Both the position numbers and the translations under genes were made by a program. 64,000 nt of DNA from Shimia aestuarii (GTDB lineage Bacteria; Pseudomonadota; Alphaproteobacteria; Rhodobacterales; Rhodobacteraceae). The stretch's first letter is position 1; the number at the start of each line of letters is the position of its first letter. The DNA lies in assembly GCF_022814865.1 (NCBI RefSeq), contig NZ_JAKVRD010000009.1:62001-126000 (forward strand). Direction: 5' to 3'. This document shows positions 33,181-45,398 of the stretch, piece after piece. The notes below the pieces were generated by a model. It was not told where the DNA came from and searched no databases. It saw only the letters and a program-made list of their open reading frames with translations.

Positions 33181-33277
33181 TTCTGCTTGCCCCTGGGGAA
33201 GGAATGGCGCACATCTCTTGGGGCGTCGTATTTCCGATGCCAAAGACCCAAGGCATTTCGCGCGAAGGGATAGGTCC

Positions 33278-33787
33278 ATGAAGGACAGGACACTCAAACT
33301 CGTTACGCTCTTCCTTGTCAGTAGCGTCATCTTTTTCCTGTTTGATGTGGCAAGCGATATCTACGATCGGGTGATCGCAAACACTGGAACCAATGCGCTC
33401 GACCTGATCCATCTTGCCTTCGAGATCTTCTCGGCGGTGGCGCTTTTGGTGGCGATCAAGATCCTTGTGCAGCGGATGCTCTGGCTGAGTGCGCAGAACA
33501 AGGAAAAGGCCGAGTCCCTCAAGTTTCTACGCGGCGAGATGGATGCTTTTGTGCGCGAGAAGTTTGAGGGTTGGGCCTTGAGCCCGGCGGAGCGCGATAT
33601 TGCGATGTATATGCTAAAAGGGCTTAGCATTTCGGAGATCGCTGTCGCGCGATCCACTGCGGAAGGCACAGTCAAGGCGCAGACGTCTAGCATCTTTCGC
33701 AAGACGGGTGTGACCTCACGGATGGAGCTGATGAGTGTTTTCATGGATGAATTCCTCGACGTGGGTCAGGCGCTCCACAGCAACTAG
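33278..33787 (+). CDS. Membrane-anchored LuxR-type HTH regulator
   Basis: A 169-aa protein with two predicted membrane helices (LKLVTLFLVSSVIFFLFDVA; LIHLAFEIFSAVALLVAIKI), a short coiled segment, then a LuxR/GerE-type HTH at residues ~100-155 (LSPAERDIAMYMLKGLSISEIAVARSTAEGTVKAQTSSIFRKTGV, cut here: LKGLSISEIA and EGTVKAQTSSIFRK). There is no receiver or ligand domain, so any signal would be sensed at the membrane. The ATG at 33278 has an AAGGGATAGG ribosome site. It could control the operon upstream. Confidence 0.88.
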   Translation: MKDRTLKLVTLFLVSSVIFFLFDVASDIYDRVIANTGTNALDLIHLAFEIFSAVALLVAIKILVQRMLWLSAQNKEKAESLKFLRGEMDAFVREKFEGWALSPAERDIAMYMLKGLSISEIAVARSTAEGTVKAQTSSIFRKTGVTSRMELMSVFMDEFLDVGQALHSN

Positions 33788-34459: not shown

Positions 34460-35572
34460 TTGAACACGCTACCAGTTGTTCCAACCGAGCTTGAGGAGCT
34501 GCGCGATGATCCAGTGTTGCGCGGCAAGGGCACCTATCGCATTGCGCTCCTCATTCCCCTTTGTGGTGCAGCCGGCCTTTGGGCCCCGTCCTGTATCTCG
34601 AGCGCGCAGGTCGCCGTCGAGGAATTGAACAGGGCGAACGGGATTGATGGCCGCAAGGTCCAGCTCATTATGATTGATGCGGCCATGGAGGCGAGTATCT
34701 CGATCGAAGAGACCGTCAACGACCTGATCGAAACGAATTCCATAGATGCGATTGTCGGAATGCACATCAGCGCGATCCGTCAACGTCTCAGCAAGATTGT
34801 TCGCCAGCGCATCCCCTACATCTATACGCCGCTATATGAAGGCGGAGAGCGTACGGACGGTTTGTTTGCTATTGGTGAAACACCGCAAAAGCAACTCGGC
34901 CCATCGATGCAGCATATTCAGAACGAGTATCGCCCGCGCAGTTGGGCCTTGATCGGAAATGACTACGTGTGGCCCAGAACATCGCATAGTTATGCCAAGG
35001 CCAAGATTCAGGAAATGTCGGTCGGTCTCGCATATGAAAAGTACCTCCCGTTTGGCCTCAAGAGTATGAGTATGTTCGTCGAGGAGATCTCCCGATCCGG
35101 CGCGGAAGCCGTGCTGATCTCCCTCGTCGGACAAGATGCTGTCGCCTTTAATCGGGCTTTCGGAAAGGCCAAGTTGCACGATCGGATGGTGCGATTGTCC
35201 TGCGCGATCGAAGAGAACGGGTTGCTTGGTTGCGGTGCACAGAACAGTAAGAGATTGTTCGCGGCATCGTCCTACTTTGGGGCTCTACCGACGGATGCGA
35301 ACCTCGCCTTCAAGGAAAAATACTACCGCGTCCACGGAGATCAGGCCCCTGTGCTGAACGCCCTCGGACAGTCAACATACGAAGGGGTGCATTTCCTCGC
35401 AGGATTGATGCAGGGCCATGCTACCGTTTGGCGCGAACATAGCGTCTCACCTTCCTTGCCAGTGATTCACAGAAGCGGTCGCAAGCGCGCGTCATCGAAC
35501 AAGAGCGAACGGGCTCCGATCTATCTTGCGCGGGCGGATGAGCTTCAGTTTGAAGTTATAAAAGAGTTGTAA
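34460..35572 (+). CDS. Cytosolic AmiC/UrtA-like amide-binding sensor protein
   Basis: A 370-aa type I periplasmic-binding-fold protein of the AmiC/FmdD/UrtA branch: YRIALLIPLCGAAGLWAPSCISSAQVAVEELNRANGIDGRKVQLI at the start (shortened: LIPLCGAAG and NGIDGRKV), YIYTPLYEGGE and NALGQSTYEGVHFLAG. It has no signal peptide, so it should stay in the cytosol as AmiC does in amidase control. It begins with TTG at 34460 (an upstream TTG runs into a stop). No AmiR/ANTAR partner is visible; a MarR gene is divergent. It may sense the transported amide. Confidence 0.8.
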   Translation: MNTLPVVPTELEELRDDPVLRGKGTYRIALLIPLCGAAGLWAPSCISSAQVAVEELNRANGIDGRKVQLIMIDAAMEASISIEETVNDLIETNSIDAIVGMHISAIRQRLSKIVRQRIPYIYTPLYEGGERTDGLFAIGETPQKQLGPSMQHIQNEYRPRSWALIGNDYVWPRTSHSYAKAKIQEMSVGLAYEKYLPFGLKSMSMFVEEISRSGAEAVLISLVGQDAVAFNRAFGKAKLHDRMVRLSCAIEENGLLGCGAQNSKRLFAASSYFGALPTDANLAFKEKYYRVHGDQAPVLNALGQSTYEGVHFLAGLMQGHATVWREHSVSPSLPVIHRSGRKRASSNKSERAPIYLARADELQFEVIKEL

Positions 35573-35630: not shown

Positions 35631-35692
35631 AAATTCTCCCACGCTTTCCAGAACGAATGGATCGCGGACCGCTCTGGCCGACGATCGGTCAC

Positions 35693-37306
35693 ATGGGGAG
35701 ATATGCCTTGCTTTGGGTTGTCCTGCTGGTTCTGCTGGTAATCGTCGCGTTGGTCGCGATTTGGTTTCTTCAACGCTATTATGCAAAAGCCACTCTCGAT
35801 ACCGCACTGGTGAGAACGGGTTTTGGCGGATCGCGTGTCATTACGGATGGCGGGTGCCTGTCGCTGCCTATCTTGCACCAGGTGCAGAAAGTTTCGATGG
35901 GCGCGCTCACCTTCGGTATCAACCGCGAGGGACGTGATGCCGTCCTGACCCGCGACAAGATGCGGGCCGATGTTCAGTTTGAATTCGAGCTTCGCGTTGC
36001 CCCGACCAAGGAGGGCATCTCAACCGCGGCGCAGGCGTTGGGATCGCGGATTGCCCGTGGCGGCGACACGGTCAAGGATGTCTTTGCCGGCTCTCTTGTC
36101 GATGCGATCCAACGGGCCGCCGCGGTGCGCACCCTCGAAGAGATTCACCTCGACCGCTCTGGTTTCTCCGATGACGTCGCCAAGGCGATTGAGGCTCAGG
36201 CGGCCAAGTTCGGCCTCACGCTTGTGTCGGCCTCCCTCCTCGCCGTGGATCAGAGCGACCTGAGCCAGTGGAACGAGAATAACGCCTTCAACGCACAAGG
36301 GATGCGGCAACTGGCGGAGTTGGTGGCGGATCAGCGCAAGGAACGCATTCGCATCGAGACGGAGGCCGAAGTCGCCGTGCGCGAAAGCCACCTTGCCCAG
36401 CATCAGCGACAACTCGAACTGCAACGCGCTGAGCGTGAAGCCGAGATCGCCCTTCAAGAGCATCTTGCCAAGCTTGAGGCCGACGCCAAGTCCCGAGAAG
36501 ACCGGGCGCGCGATGAAGCCAAGCTCGCCAGCGAGACAACCCGGATTGAGAATGAGAAGCGCATGAAGGCAACGCAGGTCGAAAGCGACGAAGCGCTGCG
36601 CAAGGCCGAGATGGCCGCTATTCGGATGCTCGAGGAAGAGAAGATCAACAACGACATCCGTATCGCCAAGAAACGTGCCCAAGAAGCCGAAGCACGCGCC
36701 GAAGAAGAAGAGGCGCGGGCAAAGGTCATCCTTGCCGCCGAGAGTGTGCAGGCCCAGAAGGAGCGCGCCATTGCAGAGCGCGAACGCGAGATCGCCCACA
36801 TGAAGCAGGAAAAAGAGCTTTCGCTCGAAGGTGCCAAGGTCAAGCGCGATGTCGAGACGCTTCTTGAGAAGGCCAAGGCCGACGCCGCAGTGAAGACCAA
36901 GGCCAGCGAGGCTGAGCGTGCCCGAATGGAAGCGGAGGCCGCCGGACGTGTGGCGTTGAACCAGGCCGAGAATACGCTTGGTGACGCCGTGATCCGGATG
37001 CGTCTCGAAGAGCGCAAGCTCGATCGCCTCCCAGAGATCATGACCCAGATGATGAAGCCGGTTGAGAAGATCGACTCGATCAAGATCAACCAGATTTCCG
37101 GCGCGGGCAGTGTGTCTAATGGATCGGGCGAAGGCGTTGATGGCGCATTCGGCGCCGCCATGGACCAGATCCTAGGCATGGCCGTGCGCTTGCCTGCGAT
37201 GAAACAGATGGGCGAGGAGATCGGGCTTGATTTCGATGCCAACCTCGCCGGGCGGACCGCGGACTACGCCAACCGTATCAAAGACAAACCAAAGACCGAG
37301 AAGTGA
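35693..37306 (+). CDS. Flotillin-like SPFH/band 7 membrane protein
   Basis: A 537-aa protein: one N-terminal membrane helix (LLWVVLLVLLVIVALVAIWFL), an SPFH domain (about residues 30-210, with the DKMRADVQFEFELRVAP and SLLAVDQSDLSQW segments) and a long charged coiled coil with many EAR/AEA repeats (about 220-440), ending in a Gly/Ser-rich tail. Flotillins scaffold membrane microdomains. The ATG at 35693 puts the helix at the terminus; an ATG at 35657 is possible. Its place between an amide sensor and an ABC transporter, all on one strand, is unusual. Confidence 0.9.
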   Translation: MGRYALLWVVLLVLLVIVALVAIWFLQRYYAKATLDTALVRTGFGGSRVITDGGCLSLPILHQVQKVSMGALTFGINREGRDAVLTRDKMRADVQFEFELRVAPTKEGISTAAQALGSRIARGGDTVKDVFAGSLVDAIQRAAAVRTLEEIHLDRSGFSDDVAKAIEAQAAKFGLTLVSASLLAVDQSDLSQWNENNAFNAQGMRQLAELVADQRKERIRIETEAEVAVRESHLAQHQRQLELQRAEREAEIALQEHLAKLEADAKSREDRARDEAKLASETTRIENEKRMKATQVESDEALRKAEMAAIRMLEEEKINNDIRIAKKRAQEAEARAEEEEARAKVILAAESVQAQKERAIAEREREIAHMKQEKELSLEGAKVKRDVETLLEKAKADAAVKTKASEAERARMEAEAAGRVALNQAENTLGDAVIRMRLEERKLDRLPEIMTQMMKPVEKIDSIKINQISGAGSVSNGSGEGVDGAFGAAMDQILGMAVRLPAMKQMGEEIGLDFDANLAGRTADYANRIKDKPKTEK

Positions 37307-37358
37307 CGGGCGAACCGTCCAGAACCCCAACCGGACCTACAACAGGAAGGAAAATGAA

Positions 37359-38579
37359 ATGTCACTGAACCGCCGAAACTTCTTGGCAAGCACCGCGGCC
37401 TTCGCAGGCGCAACGATACTGCCCCGAGTGGCCCTTGCCGCTGACACGATCAAGATGGGGTCGATCCTCGACACCTCTGGTATTTTCGATGCCTATGGCA
37501 AACCGATGGACATGGCGATGCGCCTCGCCGTCGATGAGATCAATGCCTCTGGTGGCCTTCTCGGCAAGCAGGTCGAGGTCTCTGCCTACGATACGCAATC
37601 GGACATGGCGCTCTACTCGCAATACGGCCAGCAATTGACCCGCCAGGACAAGGTCGATGTCGTGCATGGCGGTATTCTTTCCGCTTCGCGCGAGGCCATT
37701 CGCCAGACGATGCGCAAGACCAAGACGCTCTATTTCTACAACGTGCTCTACGAGGGCGGTGTCTGTGACCGGAACATCTTTATCAACGGTGTCACCCCGG
37801 CCCAACAGGTCGAGGCCCTCGTGCCCTACGCCATGGGTAAATCCGGCAAGAAGGTCTACATCCTCGCGGCCGACTATAACTATGGTCAAATCACGGCGCG
37901 TTGGATTCAGAAATTCGTGGCCGACAATGGCGGCGAGACCGTCGGCATCGATTTCTTCCCGCTGGATGTGAGCGACTTTGGCTCGACTATTGCGAAGATC
38001 CAGTCGGTCGGCCCCGACCTCGTTATTGCCCCCCTTGTTGGTGGCGCGCACCTGTCGTTCTTCCGCCAATGGGCCGCCGCTGGCATGAAGGACCGTATTC
38101 CTCTCGCTTCGACGACGCTCGGCGTCGGCAACGAGCACAAGGTCCTGACCCCGGAAGAGGGCAACGGCATCATGGTCGCCTACAACTACAGCCAGGAACT
38201 CGACACCCCCGAGAACGCCGCCTTCAAAGAGAAATGGGCCGCCGCCTATGGCGATAGTAACCTGATCCACGAGATCTCTGTATCGCACTATCAGGGCATC
38301 CTGACCTGGGCCGAAGCGGTCCGGCAAGCGGGCTCGCACGAACGCGACGCCGTGATCGAAACGCTTGAGTCGGGCCTTTCGATCAATGGCCCGGCAGGCA
38401 AGGTCACGGTCGATCCCAAGACACACCACGCCGTTCTCGACGTGCATCTCATGGAGTTCGAGAACCAAGGTATGAAAGTCGTCGAAACGCTTCCGCAACG
38501 CCAGCCGATCGACACCCAGGCCGTCTGCGATCTCGAGGCCAATCCGAACGACAATACGCAATACGAGATCGAAATCTGA
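37359..38579 (+). CDS. Amide/urea-type ABC transporter substrate-binding protein
   Basis: A 406-aa type I binding protein of the UrtA/FmdD/AmiC group. It has an RR-containing export signal (NRRNFLASTAAFAGATILPRVALA), IKMGSILDTSGIFDAYGKPM, and LYFYNVLYEGGVCDRNIF, where the YEGG and Cys mark urea/short-chain-amide binders. It is periplasmic and starts at an ATG after AGGAAGG. It is a distant paralogue of the sensor at 34460. A GC-rich hairpin follows it, as is common after highly expressed binding proteins. The ligand is probably an amide. Confidence 0.9.
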   Translation: MSLNRRNFLASTAAFAGATILPRVALAADTIKMGSILDTSGIFDAYGKPMDMAMRLAVDEINASGGLLGKQVEVSAYDTQSDMALYSQYGQQLTRQDKVDVVHGGILSASREAIRQTMRKTKTLYFYNVLYEGGVCDRNIFINGVTPAQQVEALVPYAMGKSGKKVYILAADYNYGQITARWIQKFVADNGGETVGIDFFPLDVSDFGSTIAKIQSVGPDLVIAPLVGGAHLSFFRQWAAAGMKDRIPLASTTLGVGNEHKVLTPEEGNGIMVAYNYSQELDTPENAAFKEKWAAAYGDSNLIHEISVSHYQGILTWAEAVRQAGSHERDAVIETLESGLSINGPAGKVTVDPKTHHAVLDVHLMEFENQGMKVVETLPQRQPIDTQAVCDLEANPNDNTQYEIEI

Positions 38580-38618: not shown

Positions 38619-38662
38619 TGACCTTGGCTGCTCTTCCCCTATTCCAACGGACTCTCATTCCC

Positions 38663-39529
38663 ATGGATTTAACCGTCGTCATACTTGTCGAAATGCTCTA
38701 CGCGGTGGCCTCGCTGGTCCTCATCAGCGCCGGTCTCGCGGTTGTCTTTGGCATGATGAAAGTGATCAACCTCGCGCATGGCGAGTTCATGATGATGGGC
38801 GGATACGCGACCATCACCGCCGTGAACCTCGGTGTGAACATCTTTATTGCAATGCTTGTGATCGCGCCGATCGTCGTTGGGTTGATCGGTCTCGTGGTGG
38901 AACGGTTGGTGATCCGCCATCTCTACGGGCGGCTCGTCGATACGATGCTGGCCACCTGGGGGCTGAGCCTCTTCTTCATCGGCCTTGCCACCATGATTTT
39001 CGGCAATACGACGACCGGCATCTCGACGCCGATCCCCGGTTTTGCCATCGGCAACTACCAGATCAACGGCTACAACTTCTTCATCATCGTGGTCGCCATC
39101 CTGCTCCTGATCGGGATGCTGACGATCCTCAAGGCGACACGCGCCGGGCTGATCGCGCGCGGCACGATGCAACGCTCCGACATGGCGGCGGCGCTGGGCT
39201 ATAGCCCCGACCGCATCTACATGGCGACCTTCTTCTGCGGCTCTGCCCTCTCCGGGCTGGCGGGCGCGGTCCTAGCCCCTCTGGTCGGCCTCGTCCCGAC
39301 ATCGGGCGGGGCCTATATCGCCAAGGCCTTCATCACGGTGATCGCGGGTGGTCCCTCCCTCATCGCGGGACTCTTCTCGAGCGCGGGCATCTTCGGTGTC
39401 GTGAACCAAGTCTTCACCTTCGCCGTCTCTCCGGTCATCGGCGAAGTCGCCCTTCTCGTGGCCGCCGTCGTCCTTCTGCGTCTTCTGCCGCAGGGCATTA
39501 CCGGCAAATTCTTCAAGGGGAAGCTGTGA
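38663..39529 (+). CDS. ABC transporter permease (LivH/UrtB-like)
   Basis: A 288-aa polytopic permease of the branched-chain amino acid/urea type, with about eight helices. It has the conserved VFGMMKVINLAHGEFMMMGGY near the N-terminus (shortened: MKVINLAHGEFMM), GLIARGTMQRSDMAAALGY as the EAA-like coupling loop and GGPSLIAGLF. It is inner-membrane. The start ATG at 38663 has only a weak ribosome site. Its stop overlaps the next permease's ATG. Confidence 0.93.
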   Translation: MDLTVVILVEMLYAVASLVLISAGLAVVFGMMKVINLAHGEFMMMGGYATITAVNLGVNIFIAMLVIAPIVVGLIGLVVERLVIRHLYGRLVDTMLATWGLSLFFIGLATMIFGNTTTGISTPIPGFAIGNYQINGYNFFIIVVAILLLIGMLTILKATRAGLIARGTMQRSDMAAALGYSPDRIYMATFFCGSALSGLAGAVLAPLVGLVPTSGGAYIAKAFITVIAGGPSLIAGLFSSAGIFGVVNQVFTFAVSPVIGEVALLVAAVVLLRLLPQGITGKFFKGKL

Positions 39530-40566
39530 TGCAAGGGAGCCTTTCAAGAGACGCCATCACCACCATCCTCGTCACCGCGGTCCTGATCTGGGTCATGCCG
39601 TTCCTCATCGGCACCTATACGCTGACCGTCCTGATCGTCTATGGAATGCTCGGGCTGAGCCTCGGGTTGATTTGGGGCTTCGGCGGAATCCTCTGCTTTG
39701 GTCAGGCTGCCTTCTTCGGTCTGGGTGCCTATACCTATGCCATCGCCGCGATCAATATCGGGGAAAGGACGCTTCCGATGATCCTCGCCGTACTCGTGCC
39801 GGGGCTCTTTGCGGCGCTTCTCGGGGCGATGATGTTCTATGGACGGCTGAACGACGTTTACCTTGGCGTCATTACGCTGGTGGTCACGCTGATCCTTTTC
39901 AAGTTCATCAACTCGACCGCGGGACCGCAATACGTGATCGGCAACGCGCGTCTTGGTGGGTTCAACGGCATCCCCGGCTTCCAGACCCTGAACATTCCCG
40001 GTCGCCCGGATGCCTACATCTGGGGCGATAGCTATTTCTATGTCTGTGCAATCCTGCTCGGTCTGGTGTTCTTCCTCGTATCCGCCCTGCTGCGATCGAG
40101 CTTCGGCCGCATCGCCGTTGGCATCCGCGAGAACGAAACCCGCATGTCCCTCATGGGATATGACGTGCGCATTCGCAAAACCGTTCTCTTCGCGACCGGC
40201 GCAGCCATCGCGGGACTGGCGGGCGCGCTTTTCGCCAACTGGGCCGAGATCGTCACCCCGAGCCTGTTTTCCCTCGGCCAATCCGCCGAGATCATCATCT
40301 GGTGCATCGTCGGCGGGCTTGGCACGCGCTTTGGCCCGATCCTTGGTGCCGCCGGGCTGGCCTACCTGAAATTCCTCTTGGGGCAACAATCCATGATCGA
40401 CAACACGCTGATCACCGGTCTGATCCTCGTCCTTTTCGTTCTCTTCCTGCCCAAAGGCGTCGTCCCGGCGTTGGCAGGTCTGTGGAAGGTGAGCTTTGGC
40501 CGCCGCCCCCTGGGCCGCATCCACCAGCAACGCCGCATGAGAAACAGGGAGCGTCAGAATGGCTGA
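39529..40566 (+). CDS. ABC transporter permease (LivM/UrtC-like)
   Basis: A 345-aa polytopic permease. It has the GLSLGLIWGFGGILCFGQAAFFGLGAYTYA region near the start (shortened: FGGILCFGQAAFFGLGAY) and the coupling loop SSFGRIAVGIRENETRMSLMGYD. It forms the heterodimeric membrane channel with the preceding permease. The ATG at 39529 overlaps that gene's stop by 1 bp (a GTG one codon earlier is possible). It overlaps the ATPase gene by 8 bp. Confidence 0.93.
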   Translation: MQGSLSRDAITTILVTAVLIWVMPFLIGTYTLTVLIVYGMLGLSLGLIWGFGGILCFGQAAFFGLGAYTYAIAAINIGERTLPMILAVLVPGLFAALLGAMMFYGRLNDVYLGVITLVVTLILFKFINSTAGPQYVIGNARLGGFNGIPGFQTLNIPGRPDAYIWGDSYFYVCAILLGLVFFLVSALLRSSFGRIAVGIRENETRMSLMGYDVRIRKTVLFATGAAIAGLAGALFANWAEIVTPSLFSLGQSAEIIIWCIVGGLGTRFGPILGAAGLAYLKFLLGQQSMIDNTLITGLILVLFVLFLPKGVVPALAGLWKVSFGRRPLGRIHQQRRMRNRERQNG

Positions 40567-41275
40567 AACTGTTCTCGAAACCCATGGCCTCACGATGCGC
40601 TTTGGTGGCGTGGTCGCATCCAACAATGTTGATTTTAAACTCCGCGCGCGGGAGTTGCGCTGTCTGATCGGCCCGAACGGAGCCGGGAAATCCACCTTCT
40701 TCAAATGCGTCACCGGATTACAGACCCCGACCGAGGGCGAAGTCTACATGCGCGGCATCGAAACGACCCAATGGATGCCGCATCAAATCGCCTCGCTCGG
40801 TGTTGGCATCAAGACACAGACGCCGAACGTCATGGATAGCCTGAGCGTGTTCGAGAATATCTGGCTCGCCGCGCGCAGGTTTCATGATGTGCAAGACGCT
40901 AACCGGAAGACGCAGGAAATCATTGATCGTCTCGCGCTTGGATCAATCGCACGGGATGATCTTGGACGTCTCGCCCATGGCGAACGGCAGCGGGTCGAGC
41001 TTGGCCTCGTGGCGGTCGGCGATCCGTGGCTGGTGTTGCTCGACGAACCTGCTGCGGGGATGAGCGCCGAGGACGTGGAACGTATGACGGCCATCATCCA
41101 CGAACTCAACAAGACCGCGGCGATCATCATTGTCGAGCATGACATGCAGTTCATTCGCTCGATTGCCGAAATGGTGACGGTTTTCCACCAGGGAGAAGTG
41201 TTGATGGAAGATCACGTAGACCGTGTCATGTCGGACCCCACGGTTCGCAATGTCTATCTTGGAAAGAAGGCCTGA
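40559..41275 (+). CDS. ABC transporter ATP-binding protein (LivG/UrtD-like)
   Basis: A 238-aa ATPase: Walker A GPNGAGKST (about residues 38-46), Q-loop region GIKTQTPNV, Walker B LVLLDEPAAGMS and H-loop IIVEHDM. The signature reads LAHGERQRVELG instead of LSGGQ, a known variation of the UrtD type. It energises uptake with the second ATPase, which is fused to an amidase in the next gene. Its stop is 1 bp before that ATG. Confidence 0.93.
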   Translation: MAETVLETHGLTMRFGGVVASNNVDFKLRARELRCLIGPNGAGKSTFFKCVTGLQTPTEGEVYMRGIETTQWMPHQIASLGVGIKTQTPNVMDSLSVFENIWLAARRFHDVQDANRKTQEIIDRLALGSIARDDLGRLAHGERQRVELGLVAVGDPWLVLLDEPAAGMSAEDVERMTAIIHELNKTAAIIIVEHDMQFIRSIAEMVTVFHQGEVLMEDHVDRVMSDPTVRNVYLGKKA

Positions 41276-41276
41276 G

Positions 41277-43634
41277 ATGACGGAAGACGCGACAGAGATT
41301 CTAAAGGTCAAAAGCCTCTCCGGCGGCTATGGCAAAGTGCCGATCCTGCACGGGATCGACTTCGCCGTCGGCGAAAACGAGGTGGTGGGCATCCTTGGCC
41401 ACAACGGCATGGGCAAGACCACCCTGTTGAAGACGCTCATGGGTTTTCTGCCCGCAGGGTCTGGGGCGATCCGGTTCCACTCCACTGACATCACCGGCAT
41501 GTCGCCCTTCGAACGCGCAGGGCTTGGCCTCGGCTATGTACCGCAGGGGCGGGGTATCTTCCCTCAGCTTTCGGTGCGCGACAATCTGCGCTTTGCCTGG
41601 CACGAGTATGCAGGTGCCTCCGAGCAGGATGTCATGGAGGCCGTGCTCTCGGATTTTCCGCGCCTGCGCCCGCTTCTCGATCGCGATGGAGGTGCCCTCT
41701 CAGGGGGCGAGCAACAACTGCTCGCGCTTGCCCGCTGCCTGATGGGCGATCCGGACTTCCTCTTGTTGGACGAGCCAACCGAAGGCATTCAGCCCTCGAT
41801 CATCGAGGAGATGGGCGAAACCCTCCTTGCGCTGCGCAAGAGCCGTGGCCTTTCCATCCTCCTCGTTGAACAGAACTTCGATTTTATCGCTGACCTTTCT
41901 GACCGCGTGCTCGTTCTTGAGCGTGGCCGTATCACCGGCGCGTTGAGCAAGGTCGATCTCTCGGATCAAGCCAAGGTCGATCAGTTCCTCGGCTTCGGCG
42001 CCGCGCGATCCACCCGTGGCCAGGCAGGGGGCTCTCAGAAAATCAAGTCCACTCCGACAACACCTTCTCAATATCAGGCGGCACAAGCGACCGAGCCGGC
42101 TGCCGCAACTGTGGTGACCAACATGACCATTAGACGACCGACCCTCTCGCAGATGCGCGACATGTCCAGCCGGTTCGGAATGAACCTCTCGGATGCAGAC
42201 CTCGAGGAATACCGCGAGATCATCGAACCCTACATGCAGGCCTATGACCGGCTCGACGCGATGCCGGATTACCTGCCCGAGGTTCGTTACCCTCGCAGCC
42301 CCGGTCATTTTCCGAACCCATCGGAGAACCCCCTCAATGCCTGGTATGTAAAGACCGAAGTACGGGGCGCTCCGGATGGCAAACTGCGCGGCAAACGCAT
42401 TGCGCTAAAGGATACGATCTGCCTCGCGGGGGTGCCGATGATGAACGGTTCCTCCATCATGGAAGGCTATACGCCCGAAATCGACGCCACCATCGTCACC
42501 CGGATGCTCGACGCCGGGGCCGTCATCGCAGGCAAGGCACATTGCGAGAATTTCTGCCTCTCGGGTGGGTCTCACACCAACGCCAAAGGCCCGATCCATA
42601 ATCCGTGGAAGCGTGGTTACATGGCGGGCGGTTCTTCTGGTGGATCTGCCGCGCTCGTCGCGTCGGGCGAGGTCGACATGGCCATTGCCGGTGATCAGGG
42701 TGGCTCGATCCGCATTCCGGCTTCGAATTGCGGCGTCTACGGCATGAAACCCACCCATGGCCTTGTCCCTTACACTGGTGCGATGCCGATTGAGCAAACC
42801 ATTGACCACCTCGGCCCGGTCACCAACACGGTTGCCGATAATGCGCTCCTGCTCGAAGTGCTTGCCGGTGAGGACGGTCTTGACCCGCGCCAGTACAAAC
42901 CCACGCTCTATAGTTATACCGAGGCGCTGGGACGTGGAGCGCATGGGTTGCGTATTGGTATCCTCAAGGAAGGGTTCGCCCACGACAACTCGGAGTCCGA
43001 CGTGGATGCCAAGGTCATGCAGGCAGCTGACCGCTTTCGCGAGCTGGGCGCGCGCATTGAGGAGGTGTCGATTCCAGAACACTATACCGCCATGGATGCC
43101 TGGACAGCGATCACACTTGAGGGGCTTCAGGACGGGATGATGTGGGGCAATTCGACGGGCACCAACTACAAAGGTCTGTTCCTGCCCTCCATGACCGATC
43201 ACATGTCGCAATGGCAGGGCCGCGCGGATGAGCTTAGCCACTCTCTGAAAGCCTGTATGTTCGTCGGGGAATATTTCCAGCGCCAGTATCGGGGGCGCTT
43301 CTACGGCAAGGGGCAGAACATCATGCGGCTTTGCAACGACCGCTATATGGCGGCGCTCAAGCAATACGACCTTCTGCTGATGCCGACTTTGCCGATCAAG
43401 CCGCAGCCGCATCCGCCCGCCGATTGCTCGCTAAGCCTATATGTGCAGCGCGCTTTTGAAATGGTCGCCAACACCGCACCGTTCAACGGTGGTCTACCTG
43501 CTATGAGCATCCCCTGCGGCCTGAGCGAGGGGTTGCCCATCGGCATGATGTTGGTCGGTCCACACTATGGCGAAATGAAGATCTACCAAGCAGCGGATGC
43601 CTTCGAAAAATCGGGCGATTGGCGCAGCATGTAA
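41277..43634 (+). CDS. Fusion of ABC ATPase (LivF/UrtE-like) and amidase-signature hydrolase
   Basis: A single 785-aa frame. Residues ~1-245 are a complete ABC ATPase: Walker A GHNGMGKT (41-48), signature LSGGE (141-145), Walker B LLLDEP (162-167), LVEQN (196-200). A ~40-residue Ala/Gln/Thr/Pro-rich linker follows. Residues 283-785 are an amidase-signature enzyme with K378, S453 (GGSSGGS) and S477 (DQGGSIRIP) as the Lys-Ser-Ser triad, at spacings 75 and 24 as in FAAH. No stop or ribosome site separates the parts, so hydrolysis may be tied to the transporter's cytosolic face. The acyl-CoA synthetase gene follows 12 bp later. Confidence 0.9.
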   Translation: MTEDATEILKVKSLSGGYGKVPILHGIDFAVGENEVVGILGHNGMGKTTLLKTLMGFLPAGSGAIRFHSTDITGMSPFERAGLGLGYVPQGRGIFPQLSVRDNLRFAWHEYAGASEQDVMEAVLSDFPRLRPLLDRDGGALSGGEQQLLALARCLMGDPDFLLLDEPTEGIQPSIIEEMGETLLALRKSRGLSILLVEQNFDFIADLSDRVLVLERGRITGALSKVDLSDQAKVDQFLGFGAARSTRGQAGGSQKIKSTPTTPSQYQAAQATEPAAATVVTNMTIRRPTLSQMRDMSSRFGMNLSDADLEEYREIIEPYMQAYDRLDAMPDYLPEVRYPRSPGHFPNPSENPLNAWYVKTEVRGAPDGKLRGKRIALKDTICLAGVPMMNGSSIMEGYTPEIDATIVTRMLDAGAVIAGKAHCENFCLSGGSHTNAKGPIHNPWKRGYMAGGSSGGSAALVASGEVDMAIAGDQGGSIRIPASNCGVYGMKPTHGLVPYTGAMPIEQTIDHLGPVTNTVADNALLLEVLAGEDGLDPRQYKPTLYSYTEALGRGAHGLRIGILKEGFAHDNSESDVDAKVMQAADRFRELGARIEEVSIPEHYTAMDAWTAITLEGLQDGMMWGNSTGTNYKGLFLPSMTDHMSQWQGRADELSHSLKACMFVGEYFQRQYRGRFYGKGQNIMRLCNDRYMAALKQYDLLLMPTLPIKPQPHPPADCSLSLYVQRAFEMVANTAPFNGGLPAMSIPCGLSEGLPIGMMLVGPHYGEMKIYQAADAFEKSGDWRSM

Positions 43635-43646
43635 GGGAGGATCGAC

Positions 43647-45398
43647 ATGTCCATCTTGAACGAAAGTCTGGCGACGCGCATCTCTGATTGGTCATCAGAG
43701 AGCGGGGCGGCGGTGCACAGCATCGCTCCCCAAGACGGGCAGTCCTATGTCCGTGGTCCGGCGACCCCGCCATTGGCCTATATCACCATCCCGCAGCTTT
43801 TGCGGGATGCGGTTTCTAGGTTCGGCCCCCGCGATGCCGTCGTTTTCTGCGAACAGGGGATCCGGCTAAGCTATTACGATCTCGACCGCGCCGTGGATGA
43901 GTTGGCCTCCGGGCTGCTCGCGCTCGGTCTTGAAAAGGGCGACCGGGTCGGGATCTGGTCTCCCAACCGCTTTGAGTGGGTGTTGACGCAGTTCGCGACT
44001 GCCCGTGTCGGCCTTGTCCTTGTGAACATCAACCCGGCCTATCGCTTGGGGGAGTTGGAATACGCTTTGAACAAGGTGGCCTGCAAAGCCCTTATCGCGG
44101 CCAAGTCCTTCAAGACGTCCGACTATGCCGGTATGATCCGCAATCTCGTCCCTGAATTGGCGACCTGCGCACCAGGGCGTCTGCGTTCAGCGACACTGCC
44201 GCATTTGAGAAATGTCATCATCATGGATGACACCCCCGGTGCCGGAGCTTACGCTTTTGAGGATTTGAGGAAACTAGGCGGCCCGGCTCAGCAACTCCGC
44301 ATCCCCGAAATCGACAAGACGCTCGACCCCGATGACGCGATAAACATTCAATTCACGTCTGGCACGACTGGGATGCCGAAGGGTGCGACGCTGTCGCACT
44401 ACAACATCGTCAACAACGCTCGCTACGTGACCGACCGTATTCGCCTCTCCGAGGCGGATCGGCTCGCGATTCCAGTGCCGCTCTATCATTGCTTTGGTAT
44501 GGTGATGGGCGTCCTTGGCGCGGTCAGCAAAGGAGCCACCATGGTCTTCCCGAGCGAAGGGTTTGATGCGGCGCAGACGCTTGATGCGCTGTCCAAGGAG
44601 CGTTGTACGGCGGTCTATGGGGTGCCGACCATGTTTGTGGCGATGCTAGAAGACCTCGATCATACTCCGCGCGATCTTTCCAATCTGCGCACAGGCATCA
44701 TGGCGGGCGCGCCATGCCCTGTCGAAGTGATGCAGCGCGTGAATTCTGAAATGAACATGGATGAGGTGACGATCTGCTATGGCATGACGGAAACCGCGCC
44801 CGTTTCGTTTCAGAGCTTCGTGGATGATCCGACAGAGAAGCGCTGCGAGACTGTTGGGCGCGTGCATCCCCACCTCGAGGTCAAGATCGTCGATCCGGAG
44901 GGCCGGATTGTCCCAGTCGGCAGCCAGGGCGAACTTTGCACCCGTGGCTATTCGGTCATGAAGGGCTACTGGGAAGATGCGGACAAAACCGGCGAGAGCA
45001 TCGTGGACGGTTGGATGCATACCGGCGACCTTGCCGTGTTCGACGAAGAGGGCTTCTGCTCCATCGTCGGCCGCGTGAAAGACATGATCATTCGGGGCGG
45101 AGAGAACATCTACCCGCGCGAGATCGAAGAATACTTGATGCGGCACCCGAAGGTGAGTGATGTGCAGGTCTTCGGGATTCCCGATGAGAAATTTGGCGAG
45201 GAAGTCTGCGCTTGGGCGATTGCGAAGCCCGGCACCGATTTGAGCGAAGAGGAACTTCGCGAGGCGTTGAAGGGGCAAATTGCGCACTACAAGGTTCCGC
45301 GGCACTTTCGCATCGTTGACGAGATCCCCATGACGATCACCGGCAAACCTCAGAAATACATAATGCGCGACATGATGGCCGATCTTCTCTCGGCCTAG
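43647..45398 (+). CDS. Acyl-CoA synthetase (AMP-forming)
   Basis: A 583-aa fatty-acyl/carboxylate CoA ligase. It has the P-loop [61 protein letters not shown] and the A10 motif TITGKPQK with its lysine present, in contrast to the ligase at 29584. Similar to short- and medium-chain ligases of the AlkK/FadK-like group. It has an AAGGGAGG ribosome site. As the last gene of the amide locus it probably activates the carboxylate released by the fused amidase. Confidence 0.93.

Follow-up and report, generated by a model that had tools for sequence, protein, structure and literature searches.

A LivF-type ABC importer ATPase fused in frame to an amidase, with a ribosome-binding site and start codon conserved at the domain border

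In the window, by which we mean the whole 64,000-nucleotide stretch of Shimia aestuarii DNA analysed here, a single gene encodes a LivF/UrtE-type ATPase of an ABC importer followed by an amidase (Table 1). The translation from 41277 to 43634 on the forward strand runs in one frame through 785 codons and gives 785 residues free of stops. The ATPase–amidase fusion is almost certainly real, and it is old, conserved, and present in many marine bacteria. At the end of the linker between the two domains, the gene carries a ribosome-binding site and an in-frame start codon. We propose that one gene with two translation starts supplies both a tethered and a free amidase, an explanation that we consider likely as a whole on the patterns of conservation described below. 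Fusions of enzymes to transporters and nested starts are each already known, and their combination here is new.

Table 1 Features of the fused gene and its operon in the window
Feature	Position	Strand	Basis
UrtA/AmiC-like binding protein, no signal peptide by eye	34460..35572	+	Peripla_BP_6; PDB matches including AmiC
Flotillin/SPFH protein, Band_7 and Flot	35657..37306	+	Pfam
Periplasmic substrate-binding protein of the importer, UrtA/AmiC-like	37356..38579	+	Profile and PDB matches
Permease 1, LivH/UrtB type	38660..39529	+	Profile matches
Permease 2, LivM/UrtC type	39526..40566	+	Profile matches
First ATPase, LivG/UrtD type, expected partner of the fused ATPase	40559..41275	+	Profile matches
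LivF/UrtE-type ATPase half of the fusion, residues 1–238	41277..41990	+	Profile matches, alignment
Linker, residues 239–282 (44 residues), starting where unfused LivF proteins end	41991..42122	+	
Internal ribosome-binding site GGTGA (42113–42117) and start ATG (42123–42125), in frame with the fusion	42113..42125	+	
Amidase, PRK07235 type; second half of the fusion and predicted free 503-aa product	42123..43634	+	Profile, PDB match
Acyl-CoA ligase, AMP-binding	43647..45398	+	Profile matches

Pfam places ABC_tran at residues 24–168 of the 785-residue protein, over its cut-off, and Amidase at residues 361–767. The NCBIfam model for PRK07235 amidases (NF005565) matches residues 283–784 with 752.4 bits against a cut-off of 545, covering positions 1–505 of its 506. 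The NCBIfam equivalog model for UrtE, the urea transporter ATPase, matches residues 9–238 with 256.7 bits, below its cut-off of 285.8. The preliminary description had read a complete ATPase and a complete amidase in this frame, and translation, Pfam, and NCBIfam all confirm it. The gene is present in a single copy in its own genome.

The active-site motifs of both halves are intact. In an alignment of 45 of the 98 fusions, the Walker A, LSGGEQQ, and Walker B motifs of the ATPase half are invariant. In the same alignment, residues K378, S453, and S477 do not vary and provide the Lys-Ser-Ser set of amidase signature enzymes, as had been proposed from the letters of this one gene. These residues align with residues 96, 171, and 195 of a solved Rhodococcus amidase (PDB 3A1K), which we take to be the catalytic residues of that enzyme. 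The Rhodococcus structures (PDB 3A1I and 3A1K) can be aligned over residues 294–778 of the fusion. The amidase half thus resembles the PRK07235 amidases from its first residue to its last and shares the catalytic positions with them; unlike the fused form, the PRK07235 amidases, the Rhodococcus amidase among them, are free enzymes. Membership of the family predicts amide hydrolysis by the fused amidase. In Rhodococcus, the amidase gene sits beside nitrile hydratase; a search for the nitrile hydratase alpha subunit (PF02979) gave no match in the genome of the window, and the controls were likewise without a match, so this negative has little weight against the reading of the locus as a nitrile-degradation operon.

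We compared the full-length protein with one genome per species and kept the best 80 of 148 loci. A single uninterrupted frame runs across both domains in 80 of these best 80 of 148 loci, two of which (L055 and L079) have contigs that end inside the amidase. This set favours fusions because the query was the full-length protein. Within it, the question raised earlier, whether close relatives all encode two proteins at this point, is answered in favour of the fusion. A sequencing or assembly artefact, such as an error that hides a frameshift in the linker, has a negligible chance of explaining the frame and is rejected, since the frame is intact in all of these 80 other assemblies. In addition, two complete Sulfitobacter plasmid records (L208 and L209) carry the fusion frame as a single 793-aa CDS. 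RefSeq names this frame simply 'amidase' in both records, a name under which the transporter half is easily overlooked. The whole operon lies on the plasmid in these records, which may bear on the patchy presence of the fusion, found in 2 of 25 genomes of the genus sample.

Unbiased counts were obtained with the amidase model alone as the query. In the family of the window, it finds 52 places in 46 of 394 genomes, and 36 of these places lie in open frames of at least 782 codons. Thirty of the family-level places were fetched, of which 20 are confirmed fusions and 10 are not. The amidase, fused and unfused together, occurs in 53 of 385 genomes of the class sample and in 22 of 398 genomes of the phylum sample. 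Among the six amidase places of the phylum sample that fall outside the Alphaproteobacteria, none is a fusion. A contig titled Halieaceae, a gammaproteobacterial name (L015), has the fusion with an amidase 90% identical to that of the window, which may reflect horizontal transfer or mis-binning. Two long open frames were tried as further fusions and rejected: a 1072-codon frame in G481 (L117, L169) contains no LivF and runs antisense to a neighbouring amidase gene, and a 768-codon frame (L104) failed on inspection.

The linker of the window is rich in Ala, Gln, Pro, Thr, and Ser. The preliminary description had it as about 40 residues, without a stop and without a ribosome site. The first two points hold: the linker has 44 residues and its frame is open, as it is in all 98 fusions. 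The third does not, as the end of the linker carries a conserved ribosome-binding site and start codon. Most window-type genes have GGTGAC-N5-ATG at this place, and many distant fusions have AAGGA or AGGAGG about 8 bases ahead of the ATG. We compared the site in 79 window-type and 19 distant genes (L170–L186, L074, and L076), the latter group not being one clade in the joint tree described below. The start codon is ATG in 77, GTG in one, and ATC in one of the 79 window-type genes, and ATG in 19 of the 19 distant genes.

The match of the site to SD motifs resembles that of genuine starts. In the window-type genes, an SD 5-mer precedes the internal ATG in 62 of 79 cases, as against 111 of 2520 other in-frame ATGs of the same genes; in the distant genes, the counts are 13 of 19 against 20 of 610. 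The corresponding counts for an SD 4-mer are 67 of 79 against 626 of 2520 and 17 of 19 against 112 of 610. A 5-mer is missing from 17 of the 79 window-type genes, and any 4-mer from 12 of the 79 window-type and 2 of the 19 distant genes. At true starts of the same operons, the 5-mer rate is.43 for LivG (n = 76),.70 for the CoA ligase (n = 77), and.14 for PermM (n = 50), the other two operon genes having given no usable rows; at the fusion's own first (LivF) start, it is.035 (n = 57). The internal site is as good as the true starts of the same operons.

Codon choice around the site is also conserved. In the window-type genes, the third base of codon −4 is G in 73 of 79, a level reached by 1 of 692 other columns, and the amino acid at this codon is variable (Thr, Leu, Ala, Val, and others). 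A constraint at the protein level does not explain the site. Val at −3 is encoded by GTG in 60 of 64 window-type genes, compared with a mean of.41 and a maximum of.76 over 27 other Val columns. Lys at +4 is encoded by AAA in 62 of 68, compared with.52 for the best of 16 other Lys columns. In the distant fusions, Arg at −4 is encoded by the rare codon AGG in 12 of 12 cases, compared with a mean of.03 and a maximum of.17 over 33 Arg columns. Thinning of the rows to less than 88% identity gives p-values of 5e-7 (codon −4), 2e-9 (Val), 7e-6 (Lys), and 1e-13 (Arg). With thinning to less than 82% identity, 15 window-type rows give.04 (codon −4),.001 (Val), and.02 (Lys) and 8 distant rows give 3e-8 (Arg, AGG in 5 of 5). 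All of these values serve as guides, the thinned rows being still related. Judged by itself, the site of the window does not stand out: a score as high is reached by 23% of synonymous shuffles and by 20% of the 35 other in-frame ATGs of the gene, and the codon at +4 reads AGA instead of AAA. Taken singly, 25% of the window-type and 21% of the distant rows reach p<0.1.

Judged by these comparisons, the old amidase start is kept inside the fused frame under selection on codon choice, and the internal start is likely used for translation. A competing reading is that only the full fusion is made and that the SD-like stretch acts as a translational pause, during which the ATPase half folds before the amidase emerges. 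The position of the motif at the domain border agrees with such a pause, and so does L034, in which GGTGA is retained though ATC replaces ATG. However, a pause requires no correctly spaced start codon, and 97 of the 98 fusions keep ATG or GTG. In addition, codon +4 shows an enrichment of AAA like that of gene starts, and relatives in which LivF and amidase are split use this exact place as a gene start, with the ribosome site of the amidase at the same place as the internal site of the fusions. We regard the pause as unlikely.

The set of 98 linkers (the window, the best 80 of 148 loci, and 17 chosen distant fusions) ranges from 37 to 74 aa, that is, 111–222 bases, and includes no in-frame stop; the other two frames contain a stop in 77 and 34 of the 98, and base-shuffled linkers contain one in 60%. 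The full-length protein and the free amidase thus both seem to matter. The fusion could instead be a passive by-product of stop-codon loss, with the work done by the free amidase and no special role for the tethered copy. The conserved internal start suits this reading, as does one draft genome (L105/L187; L187:7173-9591, near a contig end) in which the frame is broken in the linker and the amidase start and its ribosome site are kept. However, this is the sole broken frame among 99 fused-clade genes inspected (the 98 and L187), and in linkers as widely diverged as these, stops would be expected repeatedly if the full protein served no purpose. The by-product reading is improbable, slightly more so than the pause. 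A third reading, in which the full protein is made and a protease then cuts the linker and separates the two functions, is highly improbable: 82% of linker residues are P, A, S, T, Q, G, E, K, or R, a make-up that is easily cut, but no common motif was seen by eye in the linker middles among the 80 fused loci (best 80 of 148), and cleavage leaves the conservation at the codon level unexplained.

As had been supposed for related amide loci, more distant relatives encode LivF and amidase as two adjacent genes. An amidase directly after a separate LivF gene was called at 26 places outside the fused genes, one of which (L091) is in fact a second amidase that follows a fused gene. In the split operons, LivF terminates exactly where the fused linker would begin. 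In 14 split operons with a related LivF, 52–372 bases separate the LivF stop from the amidase ATG (52–181 except in L201). The fused linkers span 111–222 bases. This anatomy fits a likely origin of the fusion by loss of the LivF stop codon, by which the spacer would have become the linker.

In a joint tree of 37 thinned rows (23 fused, 13 split, and one frame-broken), the split rows lie on one side of a branch with support of 100/99. A tree of the amidase alone separates fused from split with support of 96/94, and in a wider amidase tree of 76 rows, the fused/split branch receives 91 by SH-aLRT, below its star. In a tree of LivF alone, fused and split rows are not separated, and the split rows L197, L203, and L205 (long branch) attach elsewhere; the LivF tree is less clear because these three have a LivF of another type. 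Among its other 34 rows, one branch sets the 10 split rows apart (98/96), and the test does not reject a single clade (p-AU 0.137). Probably, the fused genes form a single lineage. When the LivF tree is rooted by L197, L203, and L205, the fusion would be the older state. The wider amidase tree and the anatomy of the junction point from split to fused, a direction that is probable, not certain.

The window-type operon has the order AmiC-like sensor, flotillin, binding protein, two permeases, LivG, LivF–amidase, and CoA ligase. It contains the complete set of a HAAT-type ABC importer: a binding protein, two permeases, and two ATPases. The binding protein, the permeases, and LivG all score below their curated Urt cut-offs. 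Assignment by family establishes that the importer belongs to the branched-chain amino acid/urea/amide class and has a LivG/LivF pair, and the UrtA/AmiC-like binding proteins together with the amidase suggest an amide as its substrate. The product of the first gene is probably a cytosolic amide sensor. Its gene is found in 69 of 71 window-type loci with room for it (absent in L058 and L078) and in 4 of 17 distant fusions. A LuxR-type gene at 33218–33787 has no match in the flanked loci, whose flanks mostly stop short of that position. The split amidase of Paracoccus methylovorus is followed by a gene for a binding domain and by an ANTAR gene, an arrangement like that of AmiC/AmiR.

The second gene encodes a flotillin, with Band_7 at 57.3 bits (cut-off 23.6) and Flot at 101.6 bits (cut-off 27). 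Where the sequence leaves room for it, 72 of 72 window-type fused loci have it, as do 17 of 17 distant fused loci. The CoA ligase, named in the preliminary description as the next gene, is found there in the window and in 77 of 77 window-type loci with room, and in 14 of 17 distant fusions. The split LivG-LivF-amidase operons (Paracoccus methylovorus plasmid p1; L188–L202) have the same order and a homologous importer and amidase. They differ in that LivF and amidase are separate and in their neighbours: the flotillin HMM finds nothing in L187–L207 (21 loci, of which L187 and L206 lack room and are uninformative), including the 14 split operons, and the same 14 have no CoA ligase related to that of the window, apart from L200, where an AMP-binding relative (31%) follows the amidase. 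LivF in these 14 is at least 50% identical to that of the window, and 13 of them have at least 3.7 kb upstream of the binding protein (1.5 kb in L200). Because the fused genes are probably one lineage, the association of flotillin with the fusion counts as one joint event followed by retention.

In the mechanism that we propose, translation from 41277 would yield a subunit of the 85-kDa class. It would be the partner of LivG in an importer of the amide/urea type and would hold the amidase at the cytosolic side of the membrane. Translation from 42123 would yield the free 503-aa amidase. The Rhodococcus amidase, the solved relative, is a dimer. Because related amidases are dimers and each importer built on a LivG/LivF pair contains a single LivF, the free amidase would complete a dimer on each tethered copy. 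The imported amide would then be hydrolysed at the membrane to ammonium and a carboxylate, and the acid would be converted to its CoA ester by the product of the next gene. The flotillin, inherited together with these genes, may gather importer, amidase, and CoA ligase in one place. That tethering matters for coupling uptake to hydrolysis has, in our judgement, slightly less than an even chance. The fuller proposal, in which the two amidase forms exist by design, dimerise cytosolically, and join a flotillin-scaffolded assembly of importer, amidase, and CoA ligase for one amide, is tentative, and we lean against it.

If the mechanism is true, an importer has the first enzyme of the pathway that it feeds built into it, and a single gene sets the dose of tethered and free enzyme through its two starts. 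The physical coupling of uptake to the first catabolic step, an old question, would become testable in a few edits. In addition, a bacterial flotillin would gain a definite cargo to test, namely one transporter. In peptidase-containing ABC exporters (C39 domain), a hydrolase is fused to an ABC transporter subunit, but there the cargo is a peptide and the hydrolase is N-terminal, whereas here the ATPase of an importer bears a C-terminal amidase. A literature search, with most subscription journals outside its reach, found no described fusion of an ABC importer ATPase to an amidase. The nested start has a parallel in Cas11d within cas10d of type I-D CRISPR: passages of the source describe a second gene fused to the end of the first with its start kept, and a long and a short product of one gene, proven experimentally, in a defence complex (PMC10212523). 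The proposed genesis is the same; here the nested in-frame start is conserved and the short product is predicted from sequence, in transport and catabolism.

Several loci show other arrangements of these genes. In L153–L155, L164, and L165 (also L151 and L156), a PRK07235-type amidase lies between two substrate-binding-protein-like genes and a LivH-like permease, with no adjoining LivF. In L010, a transposase-like open frame (by eye; L010:1-843) lies upstream of the binding-protein gene and runs to the end of the contig, with a short piece of flotillin on the opposite strand; the region looks rearranged. Two tandem amidases of the PRK07235 family occur in L172:6324-9307 and L195:8855-11898, and in L172, the second amidase follows the fused gene at the usual place of the CoA ligase.
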